DNA from: a virus
IMG/VR virus record: IMGVR_UViG_3300010392_000770
Coordinates: 1 to 28,997 of that record
Length of the DNA stretch: 28,997 nucleotides
Strand: one strand, 5' to 3'
Shown here: positions 3,825 to 26,581 of the stretch, one piece after another
Layout of the letters: each line of letters opens with the position of its first letter
How positions within the stretch are numbered: the first letter of the stretch is position 1
The notes under the pieces: generated by a model
The model's input: only the letters and a program-made list of their open reading frames with translations
The model's database searches: none
What the model was told of the DNA's origin: nothing
Translations under genes and position numbers: made by a program

Positions 3825-4486
3825 GCAGCTTAGGGCAGCTCAAAACGTCAGTCGATGCATGGCTGGCGCGCGATGACGTGGCCGTAACCAACGCGGATTT
3901 CCCGCAGATTTTGGCAATTGCGGAATCCAATATCGCCCGCGATTTACGGCTGGCGATACAGGAAGCCACGGCCACGCTCAATATCACCGGGCAATCTATA
4001 GATTTGCCAAGCGATTTTCTCGAAGCGCGCAACCCATTTATCGATGACAACATTCGTCGCATCGAGTACATGACACCCCAGGCGCTGCGTGAATCGAGCG
4101 CATGGCAAAACGGCCGTGCGGGGGCGTTTTACACGCTCGAAGGAAACAACGCATCGCCGCTCACGGCAGGCGCGCTCACGTGGCAAATGACGATTGCCGG
4201 ACCCGGCAGCGTATCGACACCGGTCGATGTGCAAATCAATTATTGGGCGCGCTTTCCGGCGCTGGTTAACGACCCCGATACCAACTGGCTGATGGTCAAT
4301 CATTACGACATCTATCTGTATGCCACACTGCGCGCCGCGTGTGAGTACATACAGGAAGATGTGCTCGAAGACCGGTATCAAGCCAAGTATGACATGGCTA
4401 TCGAGAAACAGAATCGGCATGAAAATCGTAAGCGCTATGGCGCGATGCCCAAACAAGCCTACGCCAATCCGCGAGGCGTGGTATGA
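3821..4486 (+). CDS. Head-tail adaptor protein (221 aa)
   Basis: This is a probable ring-forming adaptor that binds below the portal and joins the head to the short tail. The N-terminus (LGQLKTSVDAWLARDDV, then IAESNIARDLRL) is the helical pattern I recognise from SU10-type/P22 gp4-like/T7 gp11-like adaptors. The middle (residues about 50-135) carries beta strands with IDLPSDFLEAR. The C-terminus has a long helix (YLYATLRAACEYIQEDVLED then RYQAKYDMAIEKQNR), typical of this fold. It lies directly before the stabilisation protein, as in P22 and SU10-like phages. Start and stop both overlap the neighbouring genes by 4 nt. Confidence 0.85.
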   Translation: MSSLGQLKTSVDAWLARDDVAVTNADFPQILAIAESNIARDLRLAIQEATATLNITGQSIDLPSDFLEARNPFIDDNIRRIEYMTPQALRESSAWQNGRAGAFYTLEGNNASPLTAGALTWQMTIAGPGSVSTPVDVQINYWARFPALVNDPDTNWLMVNHYDIYLYATLRAACEYIQEDVLEDRYQAKYDMAIEKQNRHENRKRYGAMPKQAYANPRGVV

Positions 4487-5958
4487 GCACCGAAGCACAG
4501 GTGATTGAGTTTGCAGAGTGGTTGCCGGACTTGCCGCAGTACAGCAATCCCGGCGCGCTGATTGCGCTTAATGTCATTCCACAGCTCAAATCTTATAGAG
4601 CGTTGAACGATCTCAGCTCGTTTACCAATGCGTTGGCCAATGTGTGTCTGGGCGCGTTCTGGGCGCGTGATGATAACAATGTGGTGTTTAACTTTTGCGG
4701 CGATATCGATGATCTGTATCAACTGTCCGGTGGCAATACGTGGATCGTTGTAAGCGGCGCAAGCGCGCCTTACTCCGCGTCAAATTGGGAGTTTACGCAG
4801 TTCGGCAACCGCGTGATTGCTACCGCCATCGAGTCGCCCATGCAGAAATGGGATTTAGGCGTGGATGCCGTGTTTTCAGATTTGGCAGGCAACCCGCCAC
4901 AAGCCAAACGTATCGCCACCGTGCGCGATTTCGTGATGGTTGGCGACATCGACAGCCTTGGACCCAATTTCATCCAGTGGAGCGCGTACAACAACAGCGA
5001 ACTGTGGACACCAAGCCTTTCCACGCAATCCGATTTCCAAGAAATTTTCGGCAGAGGTGGACGGGTGCAGCGCATCGTACCCGGCGAATACGCGGTAATT
5101 TTTTTGGAGCAATCCATTTTTCGGGCCGATTACGCCGGGCCGCCGATTGTATTTCAAATTGATGAGGTTGAGCGCAAGCGTGGCACGCCCGCGCCCAATT
5201 CCGTGGTGTGGTCAGGCGGATTGGTTTACTACTATGGTTGGGACGGTTTTTATGTTTTCGATGGCCGCCAATCGCAGGAAATTTCAGCCAATCGGGTGTC
5301 CAATTGGTTCGCGCAAAATGCCGCTACTGATGCGCTCGATTCCATGCGCGGCGCTATCGACCGGCGCAACCGGCTGGTTATCTGGGCATTCCGTACCAGT
5401 GCCAGCGAACCTATTAACAACCGGTTGATAATTTACAACTGGGCGGCGGATAAATGGTCATACGCGGAAGTTGATACCCAGATTATTGATGAATTCGTGT
5501 CGCCCGGTTTCTCGCTCGATGCCTTAGACGGACCGTTACCGCTCGGCATTGATCTTGAATCGATACCGGTAGATAGCGATCAATTCGCTGGTGGCGCACT
5601 CAGTTTGCAAGCTTTTAACAGTTCCAATGAATCCGCCACCTTCGACGGTACGCCCTTAGCGGCAACACTCGATACCAAGGAAATCAGCGGACCCGATAAC
5701 ACGCGCATGTATTGCAACAGCATTCGCCCGCTGGTCGAGGCGAGCGGTTCAAGCACCGTTACCGTGGAAGTGGGCACCCGGAATCGGCTGCAAGACAATG
5801 TGAATTTTACCTTGCCGAAAGCGTTAAACGCGATCAACGGTGAAGCCAACGTACGGGTGAATGCCCGGTATCAACGCTATCGCATCAATATTGCCAATGG
5901 ATTCAGCCACGGCAATGGCGTTAAAGCACAAATGAGATTGAATGGAGGGCGACGCTAA
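4483..5958 (+). CDS. Tail/DNA stabilisation protein, P22 gp10-like (491 aa)
   Basis: The likely role is tail-hub or packaged-DNA-stabilisation protein sealing the head after packaging. The N-terminus begins with a Pro-rich linker (EWLPDLPQYSNPGALIALNV), then repeated beta elements such as FTQFGNRVIAT, VRDFVMVGD, GGLVYYYGWDGFYVFDGRQS and NRLIIYNWAADKWSYAEVD, which fit a beta-propeller. The length is close to P22 gp10. The C-terminal third (about 375-491) forms a second beta domain with SGSSTVTVEVGTRNRL. It follows the adaptor with ATGA overlap and precedes a Gly-rich gene with TAATG overlap. Equivalent to nozzle/tail-tube B proteins of other podoviruses. Confidence 0.85.
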   Translation: MSTEAQVIEFAEWLPDLPQYSNPGALIALNVIPQLKSYRALNDLSSFTNALANVCLGAFWARDDNNVVFNFCGDIDDLYQLSGGNTWIVVSGASAPYSASNWEFTQFGNRVIATAIESPMQKWDLGVDAVFSDLAGNPPQAKRIATVRDFVMVGDIDSLGPNFIQWSAYNNSELWTPSLSTQSDFQEIFGRGGRVQRIVPGEYAVIFLEQSIFRADYAGPPIVFQIDEVERKRGTPAPNSVVWSGGLVYYYGWDGFYVFDGRQSQEISANRVSNWFAQNAATDALDSMRGAIDRRNRLVIWAFRTSASEPINNRLIIYNWAADKWSYAEVDTQIIDEFVSPGFSLDALDGPLPLGIDLESIPVDSDQFAGGALSLQAFNSSNESATFDGTPLAATLDTKEISGPDNTRMYCNSIRPLVEASGSSTVTVEVGTRNRLQDNVNFTLPKALNAINGEANVRVNARYQRYRINIANGFSHGNGVKAQMRLNGGRR

Positions 5959-18346: not shown

Positions 18347-19591
18347 ATGGAACACAGTCATGTTATGGGCGGCTCAACAGCCACCCAAAGGATCAACTGT
18401 CTACTTAGCCTTACCCTAGAACAACAAGCGCCACCAAAACCCCAATCTGATTACGCCATCCAGGGTAATGTATTCCATTCAGCCATGGAACTGTTGCTGA
18501 CTGCCTTGGACCCTGAAAGCGCTAACTATGAAAAAGAGTATCGAAAAGCGCTCAAAGATTTAGAGGGGCAAGATTTAGGCTATGGCGAGCAGTGGGCGAT
18601 TACGCCGGAACAAATCAAGACCAAAATCATGCCCGCGTGGCACGCTTTCGTTCAGGTTTTAAGTGCCTATGATCTACAGGATTGGTTTATCGAGCAGCGC
18701 GTGTCGCTTGAGGAAATCATACCCGGCGCGTTTGGCACGTCTGACCTCATTGGTATCGATATCAATAATCGCCTGCATGTATTGGATTGGAAATTCGGCG
18801 AAGGTGTGTCAGTAGGTGTTGAGGGCAATATGGCGTTGGCGTTTTACGCTGCCGCCGCACTTTACGATACCGAACCGGAATTGGTGGAATTTTGCTCAGA
18901 CATTACCGGTATCGTGTTCCACATTGTGCAGCCGCGTAGCGGTAGCGATCAAGTGCTATGGACATGGGAAACCGATGAAAACTTTATCGAGGCGTTCGTA
19001 GATCAGGCCAGCGACGCCATGGAAAAGGCGCAACAGCCGAACCCACCGGCCAAGACCGGCGATTGGTGCCGCTGGTGCGCCGCTAAGCCGATCTGCCCGG
19101 CTTACAGCGAGCTGGCTTCCGAAGCGTTGAGCAAACCGCCTAAGAGCATGACAGCCGTGGAGCTGGGCCACTGGCTCAGTGTCGCCGAACAGCTTAAAAG
19201 TTGGATCGATGACCTGTACACGCTCGCACAGGGGGAAATGGAAACCGGCGTGGCCGTGCCAGGATACAAACTTGTACAAAAACGCGCCAGCCGGTCATGG
19301 GTTAATGAGGCGGCAATAGCCACGATTTTGCGGCGGCGAAAAATCAAAATCAATGAAATCTATAAGCGTACGTTACTGTCACCCGCGCAAGCGGAAAAGA
19401 AGTTACCAAAACTGTATAGCAAGGTATTAGCCGATCTTGTAGAATCAAAAAGTTCCGGCCTCACAGTGGTGAGCGATACGGATAATAGGGCGGCGGTTAC
19501 TAGCACCATGGATTTATTGGCTAACGCGCTCCCACAACAGCAAACAGCAGACAGCAGACAGCAAACAGGAAACAGGAGCAGCAAACCATGA
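18347..19591 (+). CDS. PD-(D/E)XK nuclease, DUF2800-like, with Cys cluster (414 aa)
   Basis: This is a phage RecB/Cas4-like nuclease of DUF2800 type, acting in replication or recombination. Visible core: FHSAME with His44, GTSDLIGID with Asp133, LHVLDWKFG with Asp147 and Lys149, then the Asn/Gln-rich helix region. An iron-sulphur-type Cys set is present: Cys18 near the start, then CRWCAAKPIC (Cys241, 244, 250), matching the four-Cys Cas4/AddB pattern. ATG 18347 has GGAG at 18332-18335. The gene order DUF2800, ssDNA-binding-like protein, polymerase is common in phages. Its 3' end is a heptanucleotide repeat. Confidence 0.92.
   Translation: MEHSHVMGGSTATQRINCLLSLTLEQQAPPKPQSDYAIQGNVFHSAMELLLTALDPESANYEKEYRKALKDLEGQDLGYGEQWAITPEQIKTKIMPAWHAFVQVLSAYDLQDWFIEQRVSLEEIIPGAFGTSDLIGIDINNRLHVLDWKFGEGVSVGVEGNMALAFYAAAALYDTEPELVEFCSDITGIVFHIVQPRSGSDQVLWTWETDENFIEAFVDQASDAMEKAQQPNPPAKTGDWCRWCAAKPICPAYSELASEALSKPPKSMTAVELGHWLSVAEQLKSWIDDLYTLAQGEMETGVAVPGYKLVQKRASRSWVNEAAIATILRRRKIKINEIYKRTLLSPAQAEKKLPKLYSKVLADLVESKSSGLTVVSDTDNRAAVTSTMDLLANALPQQQTADSRQQTGNRSSKP
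19537..19578 (+). repeat. Six-unit heptanucleotide tandem repeat ACAG(C/G)A(A/G)
   Basis: Six perfect-period 7-bp units run from 19537: ACAGCAA, ACAGCAG, ACAGCAG, ACAGCAA, ACAGGAA, ACAGGAG. They encode the Gln-rich C-terminus of the DUF2800-like gene, and the last unit supplies the AGGAG ribosome-binding site (19574-19578) of the next gene, 9 nt before its ATG. Because seven is not a multiple of three, a change in copy number would alter the reading frame of the nuclease C-terminus. Confidence 0.85.
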
Positions 19592-20367
19592 CTAACATTG
19601 TGAAATTCGGTACCGGACTCCCGGCCAATGCCGAAGATTTAGCAAAAAACCTACAGACCATGAATCAAAGTCTAGTCGGCAGCAGTGGCGGCATGCCGTT
19701 TCTGCGCTTGCTGAAATCCGGCTTATTTGCTTATGGCGCTGAAAAGATCGAACCGGAAGAAGGTAGCCAATGGGCCATTAATCCCTATTCATTACAGCAC
19801 GGTTTTGCGTGTTGGGGCGACGGTGAATTGCTCGATGAGCGGATGGTGCCTTTTAATCAGATGCCGCCACTTCGCGGTGAACTGCCGGACTACGGCCAAA
19901 CATGGAATCAACAGGTTAGCATGCAGTTGCAGTGTCTGACCGGCGAAGACGCGGGCCAGACCGTGCTCTACAAGGGCACATCCACCGGCTTGCGCAATGC
20001 CACCAAAAAGCTGATCGATGAGATTATCTCACAGGCACAGATAGACGCCGCCCACATTGTGCCGGTGGTGCAGTTGGAAGTGGATTCCTATGAACACAAG
20101 AAATATGGCGAAATTTTTGTGCCGCTGTTGGAAGTTGAGCAGTGGTTAGACATTAATGATGGTCAGGCCGCCGCCATTGATACCAGTGCGGAAGCCGAGC
20201 GGAAAGACGAACCCACCGTTGCACCGGAACAGGCCGCCACAAGCGAACCTGAACCGGAAAAACCGCGTCGGCGACGCCGCAGCAAAAAGACAGAAGCGGA
20301 CGCCACTAGCGAAGCCGAAGCCGAGCCGGAAAAACCCGCCCGGCGTCGGCGGCGCGCGAAAGCCTAA
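19588..20367 (+). CDS. Phage ssDNA-binding-like protein (DUF2815-type position) with basic tail (259 aa)
   Basis: ATG at 19588 overlaps the nuclease stop (ATGA). Residues 1-195 form the folded part, with VGSSGGMPFLRLLKSGLFAYGAE, SQWAINPYSLQHGFACWGDGELL, and VPVVQLEVDSYEHKKYGEIFVPLLEV. This follows the pattern of the ssDNA-binding-like proteins found between DUF2800 and DNA polymerase genes. The last 60 residues are low complexity, alternating acidic stretches with two clusters of basic residues (PEKPRRRRRSKK and PEKPARRRRRAKA), which is the reverse of the acidic tail normal in bacterial SSBs. The gene ends 37 nt before an RNA hairpin and 97 nt before the polymerase ATG. Family membership is inferred from context and weak pattern. 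Confidence 0.75.
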   Translation: MTNIVKFGTGLPANAEDLAKNLQTMNQSLVGSSGGMPFLRLLKSGLFAYGAEKIEPEEGSQWAINPYSLQHGFACWGDGELLDERMVPFNQMPPLRGELPDYGQTWNQQVSMQLQCLTGEDAGQTVLYKGTSTGLRNATKKLIDEIISQAQIDAAHIVPVVQLEVDSYEHKKYGEIFVPLLEVEQWLDINDGQAAAIDTSAEAERKDEPTVAPEQAATSEPEPEKPRRRRRSKKTEADATSEAEAEPEKPARRRRRAKA

Positions 20368-20373
20368 GTTCAA

Positions 20374-20458
20374 GCGCACTCTTTGATGGGGGTACCGGGT
20401 AACGTTGCGGCGTTTAGCCCTAAAGTACACCGCTACCATCGGAGAGTGCGCCCTTTTT
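20374..20458 (+). promoter_or_regulatory. Structured leader or attenuator before the DNA polymerase gene
   Basis: Bases 20374-20389 pair with 20436-20451 in one continuous 16-bp stem (14 Watson-Crick, two G-T pairs): GCGCACTCT with AGAGTGCGC, TT with GG, GATGG with CCATC. The 46-nt loop can form a small bulged hairpin (GGGTAA with TTAGCCC). CCTTTTTCT follows directly, as in an intrinsic terminator, only 5-10 nt before the polymerase ATG. Neither the ATG nor the in-frame TTG at 20405 has a strong, well-placed ribosome-binding site outside the structure. Function as attenuator is inferred. Confidence 0.6.
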
Positions 20459-20464
20459 CTCGCC

Positions 20465-22594
20465 ATGCCACAAATCTGTTTCGCCGATTCTGAAACGCGC
20501 TCGCTTTTAGACGTTACCGTTGTGGGTGCGTATCGCTACGCACATCACCCCAGCACCCAGGGCATTGTGTGGGGTTACGCCTTTGATGATGACGACGGGG
20601 CCGTATGGTCGCCCGCGTGGGCGTGGGGTAACACGGTGCTATCGCACGCCGATCCTTTGCGCCCGGAAACCATGCTGGAACATTGCCGGAATGGCGGCTA
20701 TTTTGTGTTCTGGAATGCCTTTTTTGATCGCTGGATTTGGAACGCGGTCATGGTGCCGAAATACGGGTGGCCAGAATTGCCGCTTGAACAGGTACTGTGC
20801 GCCCAGGCGCAAGCGGAAGGCAATAACCTGCCCGGCCAGCTTGGCAAGGCGTGCGAGGCGCTTGGCACACCCCACACCAAAGACCCGAAAGGTAAACAAC
20901 TGATTGCCCAGCTCAGCAATGGCGAGCGTGCCACGTGGGATTCACAGGCATTCGAGACCGCTGAAAAGATGGGCCATTTTCGCGCCTATTGCACCAAAGA
21001 CGTGTTGGCGATGCGCGATTTGTGGCAATGCACGCGGCCGCTAACTATGACCGAATGGGCCGAATACCACGCCAGCGAACAGATTAACGATAGAGGCGTG
21101 GCGGTGGATTTGCCGTTTGCGCGCGCCGCGCAGCATTACGCCACGGCCGAGTTTGACGACATCAATGGGCAGCTCGCCACGTTGACCGGTGATGTCGGCT
21201 TGACGCTTTCGGCGCACTTGCGCAAAGCGCGCTGGCTTCACGACCAGTTACACCCCGATCAAGAATTGCAGGAATTGGTGGAAGAGCCCATGAAAGAAGA
21301 CGGGCGGCCGCGTTATTCCTGCGACCGGCCAACCCGCGAGGCCGTGCTGGAAACGATCATGCACCCGGAGCACGCCGAACGGTTCATGGAAAGCCATGCC
21401 GAACGGATTATCCAGTTTCTTGAACTGGTGGAAGCGGGCAACAGCGCGGCGGTGCGTAAATTCACGGCTATTGTCAACCAAGCGACCGGCGATTGTAACC
21501 TTGAGCGGGTACACGGCGGCTATTCATTCAACGGCGCGGGCCAAACCGGGCGATTCAGCTCGCGCGGTATTCAGGTGCATAACATTATCCGCGCGCCGGT
21601 CAGTAAAACTGACCCCAACCGCGCGCTAGACGCCATGGAAGACATCCTAAGCGGCTTCGCGCCCACGGTACTGCGCGATACCTATGGTTATCCGGTTTCC
21701 CGGCTGCTGGCGCGTCTGATACGCCCGACTTTCGTCGCGCCGGACGGCAAACTGCTGGTGTGGGGTGATTGGGATCAAATAGAAGCGCGCGTGCTGCCGT
21801 GGCTGGCGGCTTCCCCCGGTGCCGAGCGTAAGCTGGACCTGTTTCGCAGCGGTCAGGACGTGTACAAGTTCGCCGCTGCCCCCATTTACGGGCTCACAGA
21901 CCCGCTCAGCGCCACGGACGAGCAGCGGCAGGTGGGTAAGGTGGCTGAGCTGGCGTTGGGCTTTGGGGGTGCCGTGGGGGCGTTCTCAGCGATGGGCCGG
22001 GGGTATGGCGTGACGGTACCGGCCGCACAGGTGCGCCACATTGTCGATACGTGGCGCGCGGCTAACGCGTGGTGCGTGCATTTCTGGCATGAACTGTGGG
22101 AAGCGGCTATCCAGGCGTATAGAAATCCCGGCGTTTGGCATCACGCCGGGCGCGTCAAGTATCTATTTCACCCGGATTTGATGCGTGGCACGCTGATCTG
22201 TGCGCTGCCCGATACCCGCTGGTTAGTGTATCCCCAGTTTCGCCATGAGCGGGTGGAATACGAAGACGAAGACACCGGACAGGTTTACCACCGATGGGTG
22301 ACTACCTTTGTGCGCGGTTTCGGGAGCGGCTACGGCCGCGTGGAACTGTGGTATGGGATGCTTGCGGAAAACATCACACAGGCTACGGCGGCCAGCATAC
22401 TGCGCCGCACACTGCGCAAAGTGGCCGATGTCTGCGTGCTGCATACGCACGATGAAATCGTGTGCGAGATACCACAAGGGCAGCTAGAAGCATTCACCTT
22501 AGCGCTGCGCTTTTTTATGGCCGACCACCCGGAAGCGGCGGATGGCTTACCCTTAACGGCCAGTATTGAAAGCGGACCGTATTACACGAAATAA
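20465..22594 (+). CDS. Family A DNA polymerase (709 aa)
   Basis: This is the phage replicative polymerase, Pol I type, with a 3'-5' exonuclease and no 5' nuclease domain. Exonuclease: FADSETRS (Asp8, Glu10), NAFFDRWIWN (about 84-93), YCTKDVLAM (about 174-183). Polymerase: motif A GDWDQIEARVLPWLA (about 434-448), motif B region QVGKVAELALGFGG (about 488-502), motif C LHTHDEIVCEIP (about 658-669). I choose ATG 20465 because the family starts close to this point; an in-frame TTG at 20405 would add 20 residues read through the stem-loop. The lack of a good ribosome-binding site before the ATG is unusual for this genome. Confidence 0.93.
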   Translation: MPQICFADSETRSLLDVTVVGAYRYAHHPSTQGIVWGYAFDDDDGAVWSPAWAWGNTVLSHADPLRPETMLEHCRNGGYFVFWNAFFDRWIWNAVMVPKYGWPELPLEQVLCAQAQAEGNNLPGQLGKACEALGTPHTKDPKGKQLIAQLSNGERATWDSQAFETAEKMGHFRAYCTKDVLAMRDLWQCTRPLTMTEWAEYHASEQINDRGVAVDLPFARAAQHYATAEFDDINGQLATLTGDVGLTLSAHLRKARWLHDQLHPDQELQELVEEPMKEDGRPRYSCDRPTREAVLETIMHPEHAERFMESHAERIIQFLELVEAGNSAAVRKFTAIVNQATGDCNLERVHGGYSFNGAGQTGRFSSRGIQVHNIIRAPVSKTDPNRALDAMEDILSGFAPTVLRDTYGYPVSRLLARLIRPTFVAPDGKLLVWGDWDQIEARVLPWLAASPGAERKLDLFRSGQDVYKFAAAPIYGLTDPLSATDEQRQVGKVAELALGFGGAVGAFSAMGRGYGVTVPAAQVRHIVDTWRAANAWCVHFWHELWEAAIQAYRNPGVWHHAGRVKYLFHPDLMRGTLICALPDTRWLVYPQFRHERVEYEDEDTGQVYHRWVTTFVRGFGSGYGRVELWYGMLAENITQATAASILRRTLRKVADVCVLHTHDEIVCEIPQGQLEAFTLALRFFMADHPEAADGLPLTASIESGPYYTK

Positions 22595-23836: not shown

Positions 23837-23869
23837 AAACGGCGCTCACTGAGCGCCGTTTAACGTTTT
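23837..23869. terminator. Bidirectional-type intrinsic terminator
   Basis: AAACGGCGCTC (23837-23847) and GAGCGCCGTTT (23851-23861) form a perfect 11-bp stem with an ACT loop, followed by AACGTTTTC. On the other strand, the stem is followed by TTTTTATT. It lies 42 nt after the Acb2-like gene, ending the polymerase unit, and precedes the primase-helicase gene by about 80 nt. This implies a separate promoter for the downstream gene or partial read-through. Confidence 0.85.
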
Positions 23870-26359: not shown

Positions 26360-26509
26360 GTGCTACGCGGTGCTACGCGTTTTTAACTGCGTGCTCAAGG
26401 GTTTAGCCTGAAAGGTAGCAGGTAGCACTACCCCATAGAGTTAGATATATCTTTAATCTACTTTATATACCTATTATAGGGGTATAGGGGCCGCTGCTAC
26501 GTCGCTACG
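26360..26509. repeat. Candidate replication origin: GCTAC iteron-like repeats around an AT-rich core
   Basis: Tandem GTGCTACGCG at 26360-26369 and 26370-26379; tandem GGTAGCA (opposite orientation) at 26414-26420 and 26421-26427; TGCTACG at 26495-26501 and CGCTACG at 26503-26509. Between them lies an AT-rich stretch (about 26435-26482) with palindrome AGATATATCT, then tandem TATAGGGG at 26475-26482 and 26483-26490. The region is intergenic, convergent and next to the primase-helicase gene. Origin function is inferred. Confidence 0.5.
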
Positions 26510-26535: not shown

Positions 26536-26554
26536 GGGGCAGCTTAGCTGCCCC
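26536..26554 (-). terminator. Strong intrinsic terminator for the leftward genes
   Basis: On the minus strand, GGGGCAGC (26554-26547) and GCTGCCCC (26543-26536) pair over 8 bp with a TAA loop, followed by TTTTTTATGG. This is a textbook rho-independent terminator, 35 nt after the stop of the last leftward gene. On the plus strand it is followed by AAACACAC, so it acts mainly leftward. Confidence 0.9.
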
Positions 26555-26557
26555 AAA

Positions 26558-26581
26558 CACACACACACACACACACACACA
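26558..26581 (+). repeat. (CA)12 dinucleotide tract
   Basis: Twelve perfect CA units run from 26558 to 26581, between the terminator and the stop of the last leftward gene. On the minus strand they read GT. Long dinucleotide tracts are rare in compact phage genomes and slip easily, so length may vary between isolates. It is in the transcript's 3' end, unlike the CA leaders elsewhere. Confidence 0.9.

Follow-up and report, generated by a model that had tools for sequence, protein, structure and literature searches.

The window analysed here, that is, the whole stretch of 28,997 nt spanning positions 1-28,997 of the IMG/VR record IMGVR_UViG_3300010392_000770, carries on its + strand an exonuclease gene, a gene for an SSB-like protein and a family A DNA polymerase gene, with a hairpin between the last two. 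The features relevant to this junction are the following:

18347..19591, + strand: DUF2800 / PD-(D/E)XK exonuclease gene (Pfam DUF2800 3e-62, PDDEXK_1 2e-11; phrog_69 exonuclease)
19588..20367, + strand: SSB-like gene (phrog_9528 1.5e-19; fold and context)
20365..20367, + strand: TAA stop codon of the SSB-like gene, from the sequence; the stem begins 6 nt downstream
20374..20389, + strand: 5' arm of the stem, 16 bp, GCGCACTCTTTGATGG (fold, inverted-repeat and stem scans)
20390..20435, + strand: loop, 46 nt, folded internally (RNA fold)
20405..20407, + strand: TTG earlier proposed as a start; unsupported, as it is not conserved among relatives
20436..20451, + strand: 3' arm of the stem, 16 bp, CCATCGGAGAGTGCGC (fold, inverted-repeat and stem scans)
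20452..20464, + strand: tail CCTTTTTCTCGCC between the stem and the polymerase ATG, from the sequence; its TTTTTCTCGCC part is identical in the relative L175
20465..22594, + strand: family A DNA polymerase gene from the conserved ATG 20465, without a Shine-Dalgarno (SD) sequence (Pfam DNA_pol_A 6.5e-16; phrog_17)
26365..26380, + strand: short terminator-like hairpin 3' of the primase gene, possibly the end of the + strand replication operon (consensus scan only)

The exonuclease gene overlaps the SSB-like gene by 4 nt, and the Pfam and PHROG matches bear out the identification of the downstream gene as a DNA polymerase made in an earlier note on this DNA. Elsewhere in the window, a perfect 12-bp inverted repeat with a 1-nt spacer (23837-23861) lies about 80 nt before the start of the primase gene, a strong terminator-like hairpin with T6 is found on the - strand at 26536-26581, beside an (AC)12 repeat and between converging gene groups, and another 16-pair stem occupies 27099-27084 of the - strand. 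Among the relatives, the polymerase ORF of L003 (2995-6633) is split by a Hint-type intein (Hint_2, 4e-9), apparently by a second one too, and an HNH endonuclease ORF (PF13392, 4e-11) sits at 4286-4828 in another frame inside the first of these inserts.

Since the protein encoded at 19588-20367 matches nothing in Pfam and, by sequence, nothing in the PDB, its assignment draws on weak fold evidence and on genomic context. The AF2 model has a high-confidence core, and its fold matches in the PDB are mostly OB-fold SSBs, none of them significant (best E 0.03); one viral fold match, weak at E 1e-3, is annotated as an SSB. In phage MW202898, the slot between a DUF2800-type gene and the polymerase holds a PF10991 ssDNA-binding protein. 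Relatives in PHROG and GenBank are labelled (polyribonucleotide) nucleotidyltransferase, a label to which predicted fold and context lend no support. We therefore refer to the gene and its product as SSB-like.

The arms of the hairpin, which the earlier note had described and which our scans recovered mechanically, pair over 16 uninterrupted bp, and the entire structure measures 78 nt. Two of the pairs are U-G in + strand RNA but turn into A-C mismatches on the - strand, and the sense RNA therefore makes the better stem; the minimum free energy of the element is -42.0 kcal/mol on the + strand versus -35.2 kcal/mol on the - strand, and this weaker fold led us to reject a function on the opposite strand. 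Dinucleotide shuffles of the hairpin average -27.9 +/- 3.8 kcal/mol against its -42 kcal/mol (z = -3.7), with only 1 of 200 as good, and no other among 3,856 90-nt tiles taken from both strands has as large a GC-corrected stability residual. In the window, the two arms rank first among inverted repeats and form the longest + strand stem. However, a stem of at least 16 also arose when the window was Markov-shuffled, in 1 of 12 shuffles, so that length alone is not decisive and the case for non-randomness combines the stem with its position, namely 6 nt past a stop codon and with a T5 run (TTTTT) 2 nt beyond the stem, across a CC spacer. The spacing given in the earlier note needs correction: the T run lies 2 nt past the stem, and ATG 20465 lies 13 nt past the stem and 6 nt past the run. 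With regard to competing antiterminator structures, folds of two longer segments (20300-20480 and 20330-20500) retain the same hairpin.

When the hairpin DNA was searched against phage records and viral contigs, the only match was a contig, L001, that differs at 2 of 6,126 bases; it has the same hairpin and, being nearly identical, adds no independent evidence for it; in these collections the hairpin sequence has no independent homologue, and relatives sought in bacterial and archaeal genomes were not found. Likewise, Rfam searches of the window, the hairpin and related loci returned nothing above chance at the elements, and cmscan around the hairpin at E <= 10 yielded only a chance-level match.

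The position of the hairpin, by contrast with its sequence, is widely shared. Searches of viral contigs provided about 190 loci, some of which are repeats of one contig, and in most of these, though not in every one, the gap sequences contain a hairpin behind the SSB-like stop. We compared deduplicated sets of 72 SSB-like 3' ends, 69 polymerase ends and 139 other gene ends, with the SSB-like 3' ends placed automatically and thus subject to errors or shifts at a few loci (e.g., L162, where a small gene precedes the RNA). Stem scores of at least 7 were reached at 75% of the SSB-like 3' ends versus 39% of the polymerase ends and 35% of the other ends, and the scores at SSB-like 3' ends were much higher than in either comparison set (p = 6e-11 and 6e-12, respectively). 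The median stem starts 8 nt past the SSB-like stop in the deduplicated set. Where other genes intervene before the polymerase, the hairpin in most cases remains with the SSB-like gene (e.g., L002, L014, L034, L041, L053, L055, L058, L060, L061, L065, and L076), even with the polymerase hundreds of bases away, and polymerase starts that are preceded by other genes generally have no such terminator-like hairpin. Hairpins thus track the SSB-like stop, as judged from both stem scores and intervening genes, which assigns the element to the SSB-like 3' end and not to the polymerase.

A tail with a T run of at least 4 follows 15 of 54 SSB-like hairpins, that of the window included, versus 3 of 54 control hairpins. 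The run is absent from the tails of some relatives, so the property common to them is the hairpin. Textbook terminators lie 3' of the SSB-like gene in L024, L025, L027, L036, L037, L072, L178, and L187, and part of the hairpin set of the relatives are, by their sequence, plain terminators. A further group of related hairpins, of the form GGGGCTAG...CTAGCCCC with about 45-50 nt inside, was seen after the SSB-like gene in L026, L039, L145, L183, L189, and L193.

The most informative comparison is with L175, the closest relative that has the junction of the window (73% identity in the SSB-like protein and 71% in the polymerase). There, the same place reads CCGGGGCG-TCCG-CGCCCCGG-TTTTTCTCGCCGCC-ATG, a canonical, textbook terminator, and the 11 bases of its tail, TTTTTCTCGCC, are exactly those of the window, whereas the two hairpins are unrelated in sequence. 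A terminator function predicts such a pattern, in which one hairpin gives way to another while a hairpin and a T tail are kept. As a sequence comparison, L175 supports the position of the hairpin, not the particular hairpin sequence of the window. The earlier proposal that a terminator-like structure precedes the polymerase therefore finds support, as L175 combines a canonical terminator with this very tail, but a role as a leader of the polymerase does not, because hairpins in relatives track the SSB-like stop.

Collectively, these results suggest that the hairpin is a leaky, terminator-like 3'-end element of the SSB-like gene within a replication operon, a reading to which we assign a probability of roughly 0.6. 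RNA polymerase leaving the SSB-like gene would produce the stem, the base of which extends to the T5 run, some of the transcripts would stop there, and SSB-like mRNA would consequently exceed polymerase mRNA. The 13 bases between the end of the stem and ATG 20465 offer no room for a promoter, so polymerase mRNA must cross the element, and the polymerase would be made from transcripts that read through the hairpin. That the hairpin of the window itself terminates, and that it does so with partial efficiency, is what we infer from this arrangement.

Partial terminators within operons are already known, as are hairpins near phage polymerase starts, which runs against the view of the earlier note that no element of this form has been described. 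The window hairpin resembles intrinsic (Rho-independent) partial terminators in its GC-rich stem base and T5 tail, and likewise in following a stop codon, with a downstream gene transcribed only by read-through; it differs from them in the 78-nt hairpin, the folded 46-nt loop, the CC spacer and the distance of 6 nt from the stop, and its activity is predicted. The stem is stable and has a G+C-rich base, as expected of an intrinsic terminator, and its U tract is a T5 beyond the 2-nt CC spacer, the same tail that follows the canonical hairpin in L175. It is not, however, a compact short-loop hairpin with a positive classical score: the loop is 46 nt long, and d is about -40 versus +38 for L175. 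A terminator scan with loops limited to 3-8 nt missed it. As a terminator, the hairpin is thus non-canonical, given the long loop and the CC spacer.

Translation may add a further layer of control. Because the stem begins 6 nt past the stop codon, a ribosome terminating on the SSB-like gene would occlude the base of the 5' arm, and one that finishes the gene close behind RNA polymerase would thereby favour read-through. When a ribosome footprint was modelled, blocking 12-15 nt past the stop prevented closure of the stem base. In Escherichia coli, a terminator with a stop codon about 5 bp upstream drops from about 90% efficiency to less than 10% while the gene is translated, and repression was lost once translation was uncoupled (PMC4824070). 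By analogy with that organism, ribosome gating of the window hairpin is plausible.

The earlier note had attributed opening of the stem to different ribosomes, starting at the TTG at 20405, so that translation from within the hairpin would decide whether polymerase mRNA is made. This codon is indeed in frame and inside the hairpin, with a GGGGG 12 nt upstream, also inside (-9.7 kcal/mol). However, it is out of frame in L175, no such extension exists in L002 and L003, and the polymerases of relatives start at the ATG position; moreover, a 30S subunit on the TTG would leave 11 outer pairs intact. An attenuator opened from TTG 20405 is accordingly scarcely credible. A leader-peptide attenuator more generally is not supported, as the TTG is not conserved and no ORF apart from the SSB-like gene is. 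Any gating by translation would more plausibly depend on the ribosome that terminates on the SSB-like gene.

Translational control of the polymerase, with the hairpin limiting 30S access or, when looped out, bringing together a split ribosome binding site, would suit the distance of 13 nt from the end of the stem to an ATG that has no SD; as the earlier note observed, ATG 20465 has no proper ribosome binding site (anti-SD pairing of -2.2 kcal/mol). In several relatives, GGAG stands just 5' of the hairpin, as in T4 genes 25 and 38, whose ribosome binding sites are split by hairpins (PMC3014915). The window shares with these genes a hairpin directly before a start codon that has no close SD (PMC3014915), but it differs from them in having none 5' of the hairpin: no SD lies on either side of it, and a split site of the gene 25 type is eliminated because 20365-20373, from the stop codon up to the stem, contains none. 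SD sequences are weak or absent at 64% of the polymerase starts adjoining an SSB-like gene, at 73% of the other polymerase starts, and at 11% of SSB-like starts; given the similar rate at polymerase starts without a hairpin, the missing SD is unrelated to the hairpin and is not its consequence. In T4, too, a hairpin precedes the DNA polymerase gene, namely the translational operator of gene 43 (PMC3014915), yet the T4 polymerase belongs to family B and the operator there overlaps the ribosome binding site, whereas the element of the window tracks the upstream gene, which argues against an operator of the gp43 type; no polymerase-linked loop is conserved among the relatives of the window. Since the hairpin does not track the polymerase, we consider translational control of that gene highly improbable. 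Processing deserves more weight, although it too is unlikely: rather than terminate, the hairpin could serve as a 3'-end stabiliser or processing site, cut by RNase III or blocking 3' exonucleases, which would make the SSB-like part of the mRNA longer-lived than the polymerase part. Across relatives the hairpin is more constant than the T run, and an uninterrupted 16-bp stem would suit a double-strand RNase, but a mere stabiliser needs no such tail as the TTTTTCTCGCC common to the window and its closest relative. Attenuation and processing are cited as combined in E. coli rplJL-rpoBC, in a structured region between the genes for an abundant protein and for a polymerase in one operon. The window has a structured region in the corresponding place; it has no sequence relation to rplJL-rpoBC, its polymerase is a phage DNA polymerase, and termination or processing is here putative.

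Alternatively, the hairpin could be a regulatory RNA through which the SSB mRNA is controlled, such as a feedback site or a boundary against cooperative spreading of SSB into the next gene. This reading draws on two covarying RNA motifs, one or the other of which some relatives carry at the same place and neither of which is in Rfam 15 for the loci tested. The pseudoknot motif, of about 100 nt and with helices read by hand, follows the SSB-like gene in L022, L041, L051, L062, L086, L088, and L093. All 6 of its P4 pairs vary on both sides, as do 2 pairs of the pseudoknot, and none of 5,000 permutations reached the observed pairing. Its covariance model (R1) finds the held-out L162:389-495 (E 1.6e-20), where GGCAAG and CTTGCC form the pseudoknot arms and the motif follows a small gene after the SSB-like gene. 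The second, SSB-linked motif, GAAAGCGGAUGC.../...GACGCAGCGAGUA, is present in at least 113 unique copies (pattern scan, at least 120 stretches), with loci including L057, L032, L034, L114, L115, L123, L161, L195, L171:2497-2584, and from L199 onward. Positions 1 and 2 of P1 pair in 110 of the 113 copies listed, compared with permutation means of 58 and 67, and the model (R2) finds the held-out L171, in a complete phage genome, at E 2e-8.

Among the 95 of the 113 listed copies that have an upstream ORF, the SSB-linked motif starts a median of 6 nt past the stop. An SSB-type acidic tail ends 24 of 84 proteins upstream of the listed pattern-found motifs versus 9 of 5,159 other open frames; representative upstream proteins match the SSB families PF00436, PF10991, DUF669, and those of PHROG, ten belong to the SSB-like family of the window, and some upstream genes have no evident relation to SSBs. 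Within the limits of a restricted literature search, and of Rfam 15 for the loci tested, this is apparently an undescribed phage RNA motif. The nearest described SSB-associated RNA is STAXI, found near SSB genes much as the window hairpin lies near an SSB-like gene, and the L17 downstream element similarly is a structured RNA after a gene (PMC2864571); neither these two nor other Rfam 15 families gave a gathering-score match by cmscan in the window or the relatives searched. The hairpin of the window, also 6 nt past its SSB-like stop, shares the placement of a covarying motif that often follows SSB genes of unrelated families, but it matches neither model (R1, typified by L022 and L051, 1.5 bits at best, E 0.67; R2, 2.2 bits at best, E 0.46, on the wrong strand), so membership in either motif was rejected. 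As its nearest relative, moreover, has a plain terminator, we regard an SSB-linked regulatory RNA as a doubtful account of the window hairpin, less probable than a processing site.

If the terminator reading holds, it is this element that determines how much SSB-like protein is made relative to polymerase from a single transcript, and synthesis of the polymerase may be coupled to translation of the upstream gene. More speculatively, and on balance improbably in so broad a form, structured RNA control elements could generally be located at the 3' ends of phage SSB genes, the 78-nt hairpin of the window being one lineage-specific solution alongside the SSB-linked motif; they would adjust the output of SSB against that of the replication genes downstream, and might do so by sensing translation or the SSB protein. 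The recurrence of the SSB-linked motif behind phage SSB genes of unrelated families points to a common requirement for structure where SSB messages end.
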